Source of the DNA: Armatimonadota bacterium
GTDB lineage: Bacteria; Armatimonadota; Fimbriimonadia; Fimbriimonadales; GBS-DC
Direction of reading: 5' to 3'
DNA length: 35,887 bases
Assembly (NCBI GenBank): GCA_030550775.1
Contig: JAUQOS010000014.1
Span: 1 to 35,887, forward strand
The notes beneath the pieces are model-generated. The model saw only the letters and a list, made by a program, of their open reading frames with translations. It had not been told where the DNA came from and did no database searches. This document shows, in pieces, positions 16,817 to 32,540 of this stretch. How positions within the stretch are numbered: position 1 is the first letter of the stretch; every line of letters starts with the position of its first letter. Made by a program: the position numbers and the translations under genes.

Positions 16817-16885
16817 CCCTCTCTGCAAGCAAGAGGTTTTGAACTCTGGTGGCGTACCCTTGCCAGACACTCCTGCCCCCCGCAA

Positions 16886-18816: not shown

Positions 18817-18973
18817 GGAGCGCCTTTCATGAAGCCTGTGGACGCAACAAAACGCGGCGTTCTTGCCAACGGAAGTCGTAGCGTCGGCGTGCCCGCCGCC
18901 GAGGCACCTGCCAGACGCGGGCGCAATGAAAGAGGGCGTCCTCAAAGTGCTGTCGGACAGTAGGAGGTTCCCT

Positions 18974-20563
18974 ATGCACCTAATCTATGGCGCACCTGTG
19001 TACACTTTTTGGAACGAGTTGCCAATCGCGGAAGCATTTGTGGTGCACAACGGGCGGATTTTGGCAGTGGGCACAAAGGATGATCTCGCTGCTCGCTACC
19101 CCGATGCCAAGCGTATCGCGGTTGATGGTAAGGCTATCGTGCCCGCCTTCAACGACTGCCATATGCACATCCTGCCGCTGGGGATTGATTTGGGCAAAGC
19201 CGACTTGCGTGGCTGCACTAGCGTCGCCGAGATTCAGCAACGCCTGCGCCAGTGGATGGATACCAACCCCCACGCGGAATGGATTTTGGGGCGCGCCTAT
19301 GACCAGAACTTGCTGCCCGATGGCAAACATCTCACGCGCCACGACTTGGACGCGGTATCCGCCGATAAGCCGATTTTCCTCAACCACGTAAGCAAACACG
19401 GTGCGGTAGCGAACACGCGCGCTCTCCAAATGGCAGGCATCACGCGCGATACGCCTGACCCCACCGACGGCATCATCGTGCGCGACGAGTCGGGCGAGCC
19501 GACGGGTGTGTTGTTGGAAAGCGCCGCGACACTAGTTGCAAAGCACATCCCCAAGCCACAGGGCGCGGAGCTCGTGCAGGCGGTGCATCGCGCGTGCAAC
19601 GATCTGGCGCGGCGCGGCATTTTGGCAGCCAGCGACGCCTCCACAGGCTGGCACGACTTGGAAGCAGAAGTGAACGCCTATGCGCAGGCACTTGCCGAAG
19701 GCACGCCCGTACGAATTACGCTCATGCCCCTCTACGGCGCAGCGCAGCGGGCAGGCTGGCTTGACATCCCAGAGCAGGCCGGCGAAGCCACAGGCAGCAG
19801 CCCCTACCCGCCCACACCACACCCCGAACTGCGCTGGGGTGCGATCAAACTGTTTGCCGACGGCGCGTTCACTACGCGCACTGCTGCCCTCCGCCAGTCC
19901 TACGCCGACACGCCCACCACTGGCGTGCTAATGTACGAACCCGAAGAACTGATAGAGCGCATCCTCACTGTACATCGCGCAGGCTGGCAGTGCGCCGTAC
20001 ACGCAATCGGCGACCGTGCTATTGAGTTGGTGTTGCAAGGCTACCGCCGCGCGCTAGAAACGCACCCACGCCCCCACCACCGCCATCGCATTGAGCACGC
20101 GATGCTAATGGCAGACGACCTGCTTACCGAAATGCAAGCGTTGGGTGTGGTCGTGGTCCCCCAACCAGAGTTTTTGTGGTGGCTCACACGCGCCTATCTG
20201 CAGGGCTTGGGTGAGCGTGCCGTATGGCTTATGCCGTTCCGCAGTTGGCTGCGTGCGGGCGTTCCAATGGGTTTCAGCTCCGACCAGCCTGTGGTGCCCG
20301 GCGACCCCATCATCGGCTGGCGAGCTGCCGTAACGCGCACCAGCCGTGACGGTACTTGCCTCAACCCTGAAGAGGGCTTAGACCCACTGACCGCCCTGCA
20401 AATGTTCACCGTCGGCGCCGCCTACGCCACAGGCGACGACGAAATCGGCACCCTTGCACCCGGCAAGCAGGCACGCTTCGTCGTGCTTTCGCACCCGCCC
20501 GAACACATCGCCGACGCAGACATGCAGGTAGTAGCCACCAGTGCAGAACTGCTGCCAGCATGA
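18974..20563 (+). CDS. Amidohydrolase family 3 protein (YtcJ-like metal-dependent hydrolase)
   Basis: A 529-residue cytosolic amidohydrolase. ATG 18974 is fixed by TAGGAGG 5-6 bases upstream; the frame is open 37 codons further upstream but reads through repeat-like DNA. A small beta-sandwich at the N-terminus (VVHNGRILAVGTKDD) precedes the barrel. The HxH metal motif is NDCHMHILPLG (His63, His65). Later motifs are HAIGDRAIE, HRIEHAMLM and the catalytic Asp in GFSSDQPVVPGDP, closing with GTLAPGKQARFVVLS. Family members hydrolyse amides such as N-substituted formamides or hydantoin-like compounds; the substrate is not determined. Confidence 0.9.
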   Translation: MHLIYGAPVYTFWNELPIAEAFVVHNGRILAVGTKDDLAARYPDAKRIAVDGKAIVPAFNDCHMHILPLGIDLGKADLRGCTSVAEIQQRLRQWMDTNPHAEWILGRAYDQNLLPDGKHLTRHDLDAVSADKPIFLNHVSKHGAVANTRALQMAGITRDTPDPTDGIIVRDESGEPTGVLLESAATLVAKHIPKPQGAELVQAVHRACNDLARRGILAASDASTGWHDLEAEVNAYAQALAEGTPVRITLMPLYGAAQRAGWLDIPEQAGEATGSSPYPPTPHPELRWGAIKLFADGAFTTRTAALRQSYADTPTTGVLMYEPEELIERILTVHRAGWQCAVHAIGDRAIELVLQGYRRALETHPRPHHRHRIEHAMLMADDLLTEMQALGVVVVPQPEFLWWLTRAYLQGLGERAVWLMPFRSWLRAGVPMGFSSDQPVVPGDPIIGWRAAVTRTSRDGTCLNPEEGLDPLTALQMFTVGAAYATGDDEIGTLAPGKQARFVVLSHPPEHIADADMQVVATSAELLPA

Positions 20564-20627
20564 GGCGCTTTGCACAAACGGCGTAGCAGGCTCACAACCT
20601 GCCCCTACCCACACACTCACTCCGCTT

Positions 20628-20875
20628 GGTTCCCCCTGCTTGCAGGGGGAACCCAGTGTTCTTTTTCGGTTCCCCTCGCGTGCGGGGGGAACCTACAGGA
20701 GGGGGGCAGTTTCTCAACCCCCTCCGCTTGGTTCCCCCTACCACTAGGGGGAACCGAGCGGTGCTTTTATGGTTCCCCTCGCGTGCGGGGGGGAACCTAC
20801 AGGAGGGGGGCAGTTTCACGAACCCCCTCCTTGAGGTTCCCCCTACCACTAGGGGGAACTGAGTAGGTTTCGGCT
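20628..20875. repeat. Tandem array of palindromic hairpin repeats
   Basis: Five strong hairpins sharing arms GGTTCCCC and GGGGAACC lie at 20628-20653 (12-bp stem, 2-base loop), 20668-20693, 20730-20755 (11-bp stem, loop CCAC), 20771-20797 and 20835-20860. Two further stems pair GGAGGGGG with CCCCCTCC around a CAGTTTC-containing loop (about 20698-20726 and 20802-20830). A unit of about 104 bases is tandemly duplicated (20668-20770 and 20771-20875), with a partial third copy upstream (20628-20667). It sits in the convergent gap between the amidohydrolase and DUF1080 genes. A related cluster is at 32204-32540 and a fragment at 22214-22232. Confidence 0.85.
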
Positions 20876-21025
20876 CCCCTCTCAAATGCGTATCACTCCC
20901 CGCTCGCTAGGCAGCCACAACGCACTGCTACAGGCAAGCCCCTCGCATAGCGTCAGCGCCACGCTGACGAGTAGTTCTCACAAAGGCAACATCGTGCGTT
21001 TAGAGCGAATGCCTGCACAGCGGGG
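20876..21025. other. Remaining convergent intergenic region with a small hairpin
   Basis: No gene is seen. A perfect 8-bp hairpin, CGTCAGCG and CGCTGACG with loop CCA, lies at 20951-20969. It may help end transcription of the DUF1080 gene, whose stop is at 21026, although no U-run follows on that strand. Confidence 0.4.
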
Positions 21026-22198
21026 TCATGGGCACGGTCGCCAATAAATGTCGCGTGTTTCGATAATCGTGAACGGGTCGTGGCACTGGATGGCGATGCG
21101 CCCTTCGGCAAACTGGCTATCCCGAGTATCCACCACCTTCTGCCCATTGACGAAGATTTGGATGTGGTCGCCGCAGGCGCGGATACGCATCGAGAACCAC
21201 GCCCCATCGCGCGTGAGTAGTCGGCTTGCCATCACGCGCCCATATAGCGAACCTGTGATGTAGTTGCCGCGTTCAATATGGTTGAACACCTGCGCCTCGT
21301 AGCCCACGGGCCAGTTGTTGGGGTTTTCGGGGTTGGGCTGCGCGCGGAAATAGATGCCGTTGTTGGGCTTGATAGGTGAATCGGGCTTGAAGGGGCGAAT
21401 GCGCACCATCGCCCGCAACTCGAAATCTCTGAAAGTGCGCTCGGTGAACAGGTGCCCCATACCGCCCTCCCCAATGAGCACGCCCTCTTGCACGCGCCAA
21501 CGTGCCAGCCCCGTGCTGAACCAGCCTGTGAGGTCCTTGCCGTTGAAAAGCGGTTGCCACCCCTCGGCGGCGCATTCGCGCGGGCTGAGCTGTTTTAGGC
21601 GCAGGTTGCGAAACTTCACCACCATGCCTGGATGGTGTTGCTGCAGCCCAATCACGCCGCGCGTATGCTCGTGGAGGGTGCAATCTTGTACCGTCTCGCC
21701 ATTAATGGTAATCTGGATGTGCGGTCCGCAGGCGCGGATTTCAAAGGTGTTCCACTGGCGTTCAGGAGCGATTTCGCGCATGTGCTCCAAGTGGGTGGGC
21801 ACGCGGTCGTAAATGCTGCCTGTGGGGTTGCGCGGGTCTTGCAGGCTGATTTGCATCTCGTAGCCATCGCGCCACGGAGTTGATGTAGGCTTGGCACGGA
21901 AAAACACGCCGCTGTTCCCCTCGTCTGTGCTGCCTTTATCCACCCAGAACTCGCCTCGCAAGATAAAGTTGTCATACTCCGCGACGGTGCCAATCCAGCC
22001 CGCGCTGTCGCTGGGTCCCACCAGTTCGCCGTTTTGCACACGCCAGTTCGCTCCTGCGTACACTTTCCAGCCCCGCAGGTTGCGCCCGTTGAACAGCGAG
22101 CGGAAGCCCTCTCGTCGCTCTTGAGGGGTGAGGTGTTGGGCATATAACCCGACACATAGTCCAAGCGCCAACATGCTCGCAAGAAGTTGCCTGCCCAT
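21026..22198 (-). CDS. Secreted protein with two DUF1080 (3-keto-disaccharide hydrolase) domains
   Basis: A 390-residue exported protein with signal peptide at about 1-21 (GLCVGLYAQ). It holds two tandem concanavalin-like DUF1080 domains: residues about 25-200 (SLFNGRNLRGW, WRVQNGELVG, NSGVFFRAKP, GYEMQISLQDP, GSIYDRVP) and about 210-390 (PLFNGKDLTGW, WRVQEGVLIGEGG, NNGIYFRAQP, GYEAQVFNH, GSLYGRV). Both domains keep the same order of motifs. The family binds or hydrolyses 3-keto-disaccharides and related sugars, often in organisms with many secreted hydrolases. The ATG at 22198 lacks a Shine-Dalgarno; ATG 22174 is an alternative. The gene is flanked by members of the hairpin repeat family on both sides. 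Confidence 0.88.
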   Translation of the reverse strand: MGRQLLASMLALGLCVGLYAQHLTPQERREGFRSLFNGRNLRGWKVYAGANWRVQNGELVGPSDSAGWIGTVAEYDNFILRGEFWVDKGSTDEGNSGVFFRAKPTSTPWRDGYEMQISLQDPRNPTGSIYDRVPTHLEHMREIAPERQWNTFEIRACGPHIQITINGETVQDCTLHEHTRGVIGLQQHHPGMVVKFRNLRLKQLSPRECAAEGWQPLFNGKDLTGWFSTGLARWRVQEGVLIGEGGMGHLFTERTFRDFELRAMVRIRPFKPDSPIKPNNGIYFRAQPNPENPNNWPVGYEAQVFNHIERGNYITGSLYGRVMASRLLTRDGAWFSMRIRACGDHIQIFVNGQKVVDTRDSQFAEGRIAIQCHDPFTIIETRDIYWRPCP

Positions 22199-32084: not shown

Positions 32085-32200
32085 CTTCCTGATAAAGGGT
32101 CCATCGTTTGGGTTCCACTGCGCGCTCTTCGCAGGGGGATTCTGCTCCTCTGATAAGGGTACAACGCCTAGGTTCAACTCGGCTGTCTTGCCCCCCTCCG
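32085..32200. repeat. Degenerate GATAAGGGT repeat units
   Basis: Two direct copies of a roughly 60-base unit start CTGATAAAGGGT (32089-32100) and CTGATAAGGGT (32150-32160) and continue with similar sequence (TGGGTTCCACT and AGGTTCAACTC). A third copy is inverted at about 32395-32455, where CCCTTATCAG is followed by CTCCTGTAGG. The unit is unknown to me. Confidence 0.55.
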
Positions 32201-32203
32201 TAA

Positions 32204-32540
32204 GGCTCCCCCTGCCCTGCGCGGGGAACCGCCCCCGACCCAGTTCCCCAAACCGCCAAACCACGTTGTAATCGACCACCCGCCCCGCGAGGGGAACCGA
32301 AAAAAACGCCCTCGGTTCCCCCTACGGCGTAGGGGGAACCTGCAGGAGGGGGTTCGAGAAAAATCCATCTCTGCTCTCGGCTTGAGGGGTGCAAGTGGGA
32401 AAGATGCGCCCGCGGCGCCCGAGTTTGGGGTAGAACCGTGTACCCTTATCAGCTCCTGTAGGTTCCCCTCGCGCAGTGGGGGAACCAAATCCCCAGCGGT
32501 TCCCCCTGCCTGTAGGGGGCAACCTCAAGGAGGGGGTTTG
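32204..32540. repeat. Second cluster of GGTTCCCC/GGGGAACC hairpin repeats
   Basis: Related to the array at 20628-20875. Hairpins lie at about 32204-32230, 32314-32340 (a perfect 13-bp stem around a single central base), 32461-32486 and 32499-32524. The linker TGCAGGAGGGGG at 32341 and AAGGAGGGGG at 32527 are the same as in the first array. CTCCTGTAGG at 32454 is its inverse, so units occur in both orientations. The cluster again sits between two convergent genes, ending 47 bases from the stop of the GlmL-like gene. Confidence 0.8.

Follow-up and report, generated by a model that had tools for sequence, protein, structure and literature searches.

Between two genes of an Armatimonadota bacterium lies a dense cluster of palindromes, which raises the question of what kind of element such a cluster represents and how it came to be there. 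It is located at 20.6 kb of a 35,887-nucleotide stretch (the whole of which is referred to as the window here), corresponding to contig C126 of a 2.43-Mb genome in 152 contigs. The original prediction, made from the sequence alone, described seven strong stems, and we found five GGTTCCCC/GGGGAACC hairpins and two GGAGGGGG/CCCCCTCC linker stems in an array that extends from 20628 to 20860 (Table 1). The rest of its description was borne out as well: the duplicated unit of about 104 bases has a measured spacing of 102 to 105 bases, the loops TT, GT, and CCAC can all be read in the array, the linker is conserved (TACAGGAGGGGGGCAGTTTC, exact at 20694 to 20713 and at 20798 to 20817), and the two neighboring genes point toward each other. 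The array is not a CRISPR, as had been stated, given that it is composed of ∼104-base palindromic units with repeated linkers instead of direct repeats with unique spacers. The first linker stem is the end of one unit's outer stem beside the start of that of the next unit. The whole window contains 6 exact palindromes, compared with 0 in 100 shuffles, and the folding energy of positions 20614 to 20875 reaches a z score of −11.0. Directly left of the array lies a short palindrome of another kind, GCAGGCTCACAACCTGC (window positions 20585 to 20605).

Table 1 Features of the array, its surroundings, and related elements. Positions are those of the window unless a locus is named.
Feature	Position	Strand	Remark
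Solitary terminal repeat	16841..16866	-	CTGGCAAGGGTAC..GAGTTC without core; element remnant
Amidohydrolase gene (PF07969)	18863..20563	+	Flanking gene
Hairpin 1	20628..20653	.	Array hairpin, GGTTCCCCCTGC-TT-GCAGGGGGAACC
Hairpin 2	20668..20693	.	Second loop type, TCGC-GT-GCGG
Linker stem 1	20698..20725	.	GGAGGGGG (20698-20705) with CCCCCTCC (20718-20725)
Hairpin 3	20730..20755	.	CTA-CCAC-TAG loop
Hairpin 4	20771..20797	.	TCGC-GT-GCGGG
Linker stem 2	20802..20830	.	GGAGGGGG (20802-20809) with CCCCCTCC (20823-20830)
Hairpin 5	20835..20860	.	One terminal base altered (GGGGAACT)
Truncated sixth hairpin	20872..20883	.	5' arm only (GGCTCCCCTCTC); right edge of array
3-Keto-disaccharide hydrolase domain gene (PF06439)	21026..22198	-	Flanking gene
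Probable left end of interrupted element	32089..32102	+	Imperfect terminal repeat CTGATAAAGGGTCC
Complete MITE, subfamily B	32150..32452	.	CTGATAAGGGTAC...GTACCCTTATCAG with same hairpin core
Further hairpin pair	32461..32524	.	Second element, seemingly interrupted by the 32150-32452 MITE
Y1 (IS200-like) and sigma-70 region 4-like fusion	L016:1183-1902 (G000:C84)	-	

A genome-wide count yielded 202 exact sites of the palindrome (control, 0), which excludes a restriction to this array and the 32.2-kb copy, and the array is therefore no local oddity. At a tolerance of three mismatches, the outer tag GGGGAACCTACAGGAGGGGG has 229 sites in the genome (control, 0). Many contigs of this genome (G000), e.g., C12, C25, C26, C72, C89, and C147, terminate in or beside hairpin arrays. 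As arrays break the assembly, the number of 202 is probably an undercount. The exact palindrome is present in 19 of 61 genomes (including our own), and its counts within the genus range from 0 to 202.

To a large extent, these hairpins lie inside longer elements with defined ends. The flanks of hairpin pairs display CTGAYAAGGGTACA...TGTACCCTTRTCAG, and 101 such terminal repeats, each with no more than one mismatch, were counted genome-wide (control, 0). In a sample of 90 hairpin clusters from 75 stretches of this genome (738,020 bases), which were chosen for holding elements or ends so that the figures are proportions of elements and not of the genome, we observed the terminal inverted repeat CTGAYAAGGGTAC(A) in the correct orientation and no more than 220 bases away at 63 clusters, of which 27 have it on both sides, while 71 of 2,000 random positions had one on one side. 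A further 21 clusters, including the window array, have no main-type end on either side, with neither side cut by a contig end, and the other 6 lack an end on one side and are cut by the contig on the other. Seen from the ends, counting those with at most one mismatch, the core was found inside 70 of 80 terminal repeats.

The paired ends carry the footprint of transposition. Among 33 end-paired elements of this genome, at least 1 of which (L064, 3738 to 4126) is a false pair, 9 are flanked by 11-bp target duplications with at most two mismatches, compared with 0.09 expected from swapped flanks, and 3 of these duplications are exact; 10-bp duplications flank 4 of the 33 pairs (0.06 expected). 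The remaining 24 pairs, including the one at 32150 to 32452 of the window, have no 11-bp duplication at this threshold. In loci of three sister metagenome-assembled genomes (MAGs), 6 of 14 pairs show 11-bp duplications, compared with 0.00 expected. The pairs of our genome span 198 to 582 bp and have no coding capacity (33 of 34; the remaining pair is at a contig end), they fall by eye into three arm subfamilies, and folding of whole elements gives a single long hairpin running from one end to the other. They are thus short, noncoding, multicopy elements with terminal inverted repeats and a duplication of fixed length, whose ends also lie next to transposase genes in sister genomes, as is characteristic of miniature inverted-repeat transposable elements (MITEs). 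Given the terminal repeats at 63 of 90 clusters and the 11-bp target duplications, most of the arrays are MITE cores.

Taken together, we put at roughly four in five the probability that the hairpin arrays are mostly cores of MITEs on which an IS4-like DDE transposase acts in trans, with the 20.6-kb array as a copy that lost its arms. The ends of the main vehicle are ∼27-base terminal repeats (CTGAYAAGGGTACANNGCNTGRGTTC), its target duplications measure 10 to 11 bp, and an IS4-like transposase from an element with these same ends would mobilize it in trans. The core that lies between the ends has an outer stem, CCCCCTCC/GGAGGGGG, that encloses two hairpins, and tandem duplication of this unit, probably by recombination or slippage, would turn cores into arrays.

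The second element of the window, at 32150 to 32452, has CTCCT (5 bp) on both sides instead of the usual 11-bp duplication, and it probably lies inside another element. Two further loci depart from the common arrangement. At L221 of this genome (3511 to 3865), a main-type end is followed by GCAACGGCACGAAnGCCGTTGCCCCTG repeats instead of GGTTCCCC. At L173 (5451 to 5806), two ends are joined in a composite element: one has a CCTCACCCC/CCCCTCTCC core, the type found in the relative G009, and the other is complete and has a GGTTCCCC core. An exact 10-bp duplication encloses the entire composite.

Candidates for the partner transposase come from sister genomes, where transposase genes lie just inside the same ends. 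In the relative G007, a transposase gene that matches PF01609 (L244) has an element edge, CTGATTAGGGTAC, 35 bases before its start codon, and homologues of this transposase led us to four additional genes. One of them, also in G007 (L204), is a 311-amino-acid open frame related to IS4 transposases whose start lies 61 bases inward of an exact terminal repeat; another, in G013 (L347), starts just inside an end with two mismatches, and the GGTACAAAAAAA that comes after this end is also seen in L204. In G012, the C-terminal parts of two homologues (L330 and L340) face exact ends, CTGAYAAGGGTACATCACTTGAGTTC, as found at many G013 element ends. In the relative G010, we found two identical 1,438-bp copies of a more distantly related element, with ∼44% amino acid identity to the L244 transposase and exact 11-bp duplications at both copies, and IS4 elements are described as having duplications of about 10 bp (PMC2266710). 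The top NCBIfam model was that of the IS4 family (NF033591), at 100.3 and 63.2 bits, below its cutoff of 152; the PF01609 cutoff was passed by L244 only, with L204 below it. None of the partner copies examined is intact with both ends, each being broken or cut by a contig end. Beside the IS4-like element of L244 (2451 to 2860), which abuts the ACCTGCGGGAGGGGGG edge of an apparent GGTTCCCC-core element, lie more MITEs.

PF01609 was detected at 31 places in 10 of 13 genomes of the genus. A profile search of our genome with this model gave 0 hits, which does not prove absence, since the same model misses L204. A tblastn search with three transposases against about 830 kb of the 2.43 Mb returned only a doubtful fragment, in a 92-kb portion. 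This weak match to the L244 transposase (35% over 68 amino acids; E value, 0.006), at L362 (2344 to 2544; contig C133 of this genome), is a possible partner remnant.

Terminal-repeat matches were found in the Armatimonadota MAGs JAIMAN01 (HOT.MAX.079), CALKLF01 (“uncultured Fimbriimonadales”), and CAKZQI01, which by equal coordinates correspond to G007 and G009 (same genus as our genome) and G013 (same family); these relatives suggest a placement in Fimbriimonadales and a hot-spring habitat for our own genome. Across 113 genomes of the class, an extended version of the end is present in 12, of which 11 belong to the family; it was found once outside the family, with two mismatches, and controls gave 0. 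The counts include 106 ends in G013, 66 in G009, and 42 in G000. What lies between the ends differs by species, even though single assignments of a core to a genome are loose because the sorting patterns are short strings. Among ends with no more than one mismatch that a contig boundary does not cut, GGTTCCCC was found in 72 of 80 ends of G000, a CCTCACCC/CCCTCTCC core in 24 of 24 ends of G009 and 15 of 16 ends of G007, the CCTCACCC core in 4 of 6 ends of G006 and both ends of G001, and a GAGCGAAGCGA palindrome in all 5 ends of CAKZQI01. The 6 ends of G002, G008, and G011 include 1 with GGTTCCCC and 5 with no listed core, and three or four of these five have, by eye, GTAGCGTCGG-type repeats.

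Conversely, the GGTTCCCC core occurs outside the main vehicle. In our genome, it lies in a second vehicle of 144 to 148 bp with GCTTYGCCTCTCGT ends, in five copies (L055, L116, L117, L178, and L184); the scan for this vehicle was loose and gave mostly false pairs, and only these five, with matching ends on both sides, were retained. In G007, it is found in a third vehicle, between ATACCAATCG ends, and in G008 it is found within other arms; target duplications were not established for the terminal repeats of these other vehicles in G007 and G008. A match to the paired ends in Bacteroides (L234) was AT rich, without duplication, and was set aside as unrelated. Judged by sequence comparison, the core is interchangeable: one and the same vehicle holds unrelated palindromes in sister species, and the core of our genome also rides in other vehicles.

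This interchangeability bears on a rival explanation, in which the palindromic doublet would be a module in its own right, mobile or convertible, that inserts into MITEs of unrelated kinds, the MITE being one carrier only. Such a module would account for the same core in a second vehicle here, a third in G007, and other arms in G008, for the 21 of 90 clusters without main-type ends, and for the other palindromes held by the main vehicle in G009, G007, G013/CAKZQI, and G008/G011/G002. However, no target duplication was demonstrated around a bare core, no core-less vehicle was seen as an empty site, and core exchange by recombination between elements would look identical, so that we regard the independent module as rather unlikely. 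A related idea, which we advance tentatively and at less than even odds, is that the palindromic doublets are transferable cargo, with several unrelated palindrome families being exchanged freely between several unrelated MITE vehicles inside one bacterial family and each species having its own palindrome.

Selection for a transcript-level function offers another explanation, as the original prediction had also considered a structured RNA or a bidirectional transcription barrier. The clusters are largely intergenic, with only 3 of 90 inside genes although 80% of the sequence is coding by our own gene calling. Of 57 clusters with both neighbors known, 35 lie between tandem, 12 between divergent, and 10 between convergent genes; the expected excess in convergent gaps is absent (10 of 57 intergenic clusters compared with 77 of 416 element-free gaps; Fisher P = 1.0, with 53 gaps holding an element). 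The convergent setting of the array is incidental, and a role tied to convergent gaps was set aside, given the missing excess. For covariation, we used 29 of 36 two-hairpin cores, seven being excluded because they were oriented differently or had a poor outer stem, and obtained 3 cells with compensatory changes, a number equaled or surpassed in 478 of 500 shuffles; pairing in these cores amounts to 91.3%, and all 500 shuffles were at least as high. Thus, a structured RNA or terminator kept by selection would fit the strong folding of the array and the two terminator-like matches at 20400 to 21100 (shuffle mean, 0.7), but it appears improbable given compensatory changes that do not rise above shuffles, convergent gaps that are not enriched, and an Rfam search without a match.

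The original prediction had further proposed a REP-type element amplified by a transposase elsewhere. The genome indeed holds a palindromic family, apparently moved by a transposase encoded elsewhere, but the mover indicated is an IS4-like DDE transposase instead of a RAYT-type Y1 transposase. The single Y1 protein of the genome reads QVH instead of HUH, its first histidine being replaced by glutamine, and by eye the usual position of the catalytic tyrosine appears to read tryptophan. It continues into a sigma-70 region 4-like tail (Pfam, 22.1 bits, below the cutoff of 24.1), and it matches ISDra2-type transposases, the PDB chains in question being those of ISDra2 TnpA. The motif PNQ[VI]HL was read in all 9 family loci with the protein extracted (of 17 loci examined). 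A Y1 match is present in all 18 genomes of the family, for which reason the fusion looks like a domesticated transposase; these include G003, G005, G006, and G015, which are without the exact palindrome. A GTAG tag adjoins the palindrome in 30 of 197 hairpins, and CGTC is not among the 20 commonest tetranucleotides adjoining it. Spread of REP/BIME or REPIN elements by a RAYT (Y1 HUH) transposase would fit the high copy number, the intergenic location, the BIME-like inverted pairs of two alternating hairpin types, the occasional GTAG tag, and the cores of G007 and G008 that sit within other arms and lack the main terminal repeat. It was rejected as very improbable on account of the QVH motif and the sigma-4-like tail, the Y1 proteins in palindrome-free genomes, the scarcity of GTAG, and the terminal repeats and 11-bp duplications that lie outside the core.

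Returning to the array as the core of a MITE, we found no recognizable arm or terminal repeat on either side of it, its right margin truncates a hairpin, and its flanks showed no resemblance to anything else in the stretches of our genome that were compared. We somewhat favor a decayed core whose arms were lost by deletion or recombination; the alternative is a core inserted without arms. The two flanking genes lie apart in G003, G005, G007, G009, and G010, and the retrieved stretches of these genomes share with the window no more than one flanking gene and matches of less than 200 bases. DNA identity to the relatives is 77 to 81%, and gene order around the array is not preserved. As gene order is so scrambled in the relatives, the separated flanking genes are no evidence of rearrangement, and the idea that the array marks a single rearrangement was dropped.

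MITEs with an IS4-like mover are already known. Like them, the elements described here are noncoding, have terminal inverted repeats and ∼10- to 11-bp duplications, and are associated with an IS4-like transposase (in sister genomes); they differ in their hairpin-array interior, the sequence of which changes from one species to another between ends that remain the same. The nearest precedent is BrickBuilt, a MITE of Porphyromonas gingivalis that also contains a tandem array and is described as always intergenic; other MITEs of that genome are described as having similar ends with unrelated interiors, as here (PMC4596501). The BrickBuilt repeats differ in being 23-nucleotide direct repeats, and its ends resemble those of the IS5 family; no match was reported outside its species (PMC4596501). 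With BIMEs and REPINs, our elements share inverted palindrome pairs, high copy number, intergenic location, and alternating arrays (PMC3116915 and PMC2817692), but they have no intact RAYT and no constant GTAG tag, and terminal repeats of the DDE type surround them. The REPs with GTAG and CGTC tags are similarly short dispersed palindromes, of which the CGTC class is reportedly without a dedicated transposase (PMC3733652); neither tag is the rule here. In the literature covered on MITEs, REP/BIME, REPIN/RAYT, and Fimbriimonadales repeats, which took in few subscription journals, we found no hairpin-array core exchanged between species and vehicles.

Many bacterial genomes contain hundreds of short palindromes for which, to our knowledge, no mover has been named. 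In the present case, most of the sampled copies adjoin ends of a kind that, in sister species, also borders a classical DDE transposase, with the palindrome being swapped by species and the ends remaining constant. If the palindromic doublets were indeed transferable cargo, this would provide a general spreading route for REP-like repeats without a RAYT, and an inverted hairpin core may be needed or favored by DDE-type MITEs. The family thus offers a testable spreading route for transposase-less REP-like repeats and a natural experiment on why MITEs retain hairpin cores.
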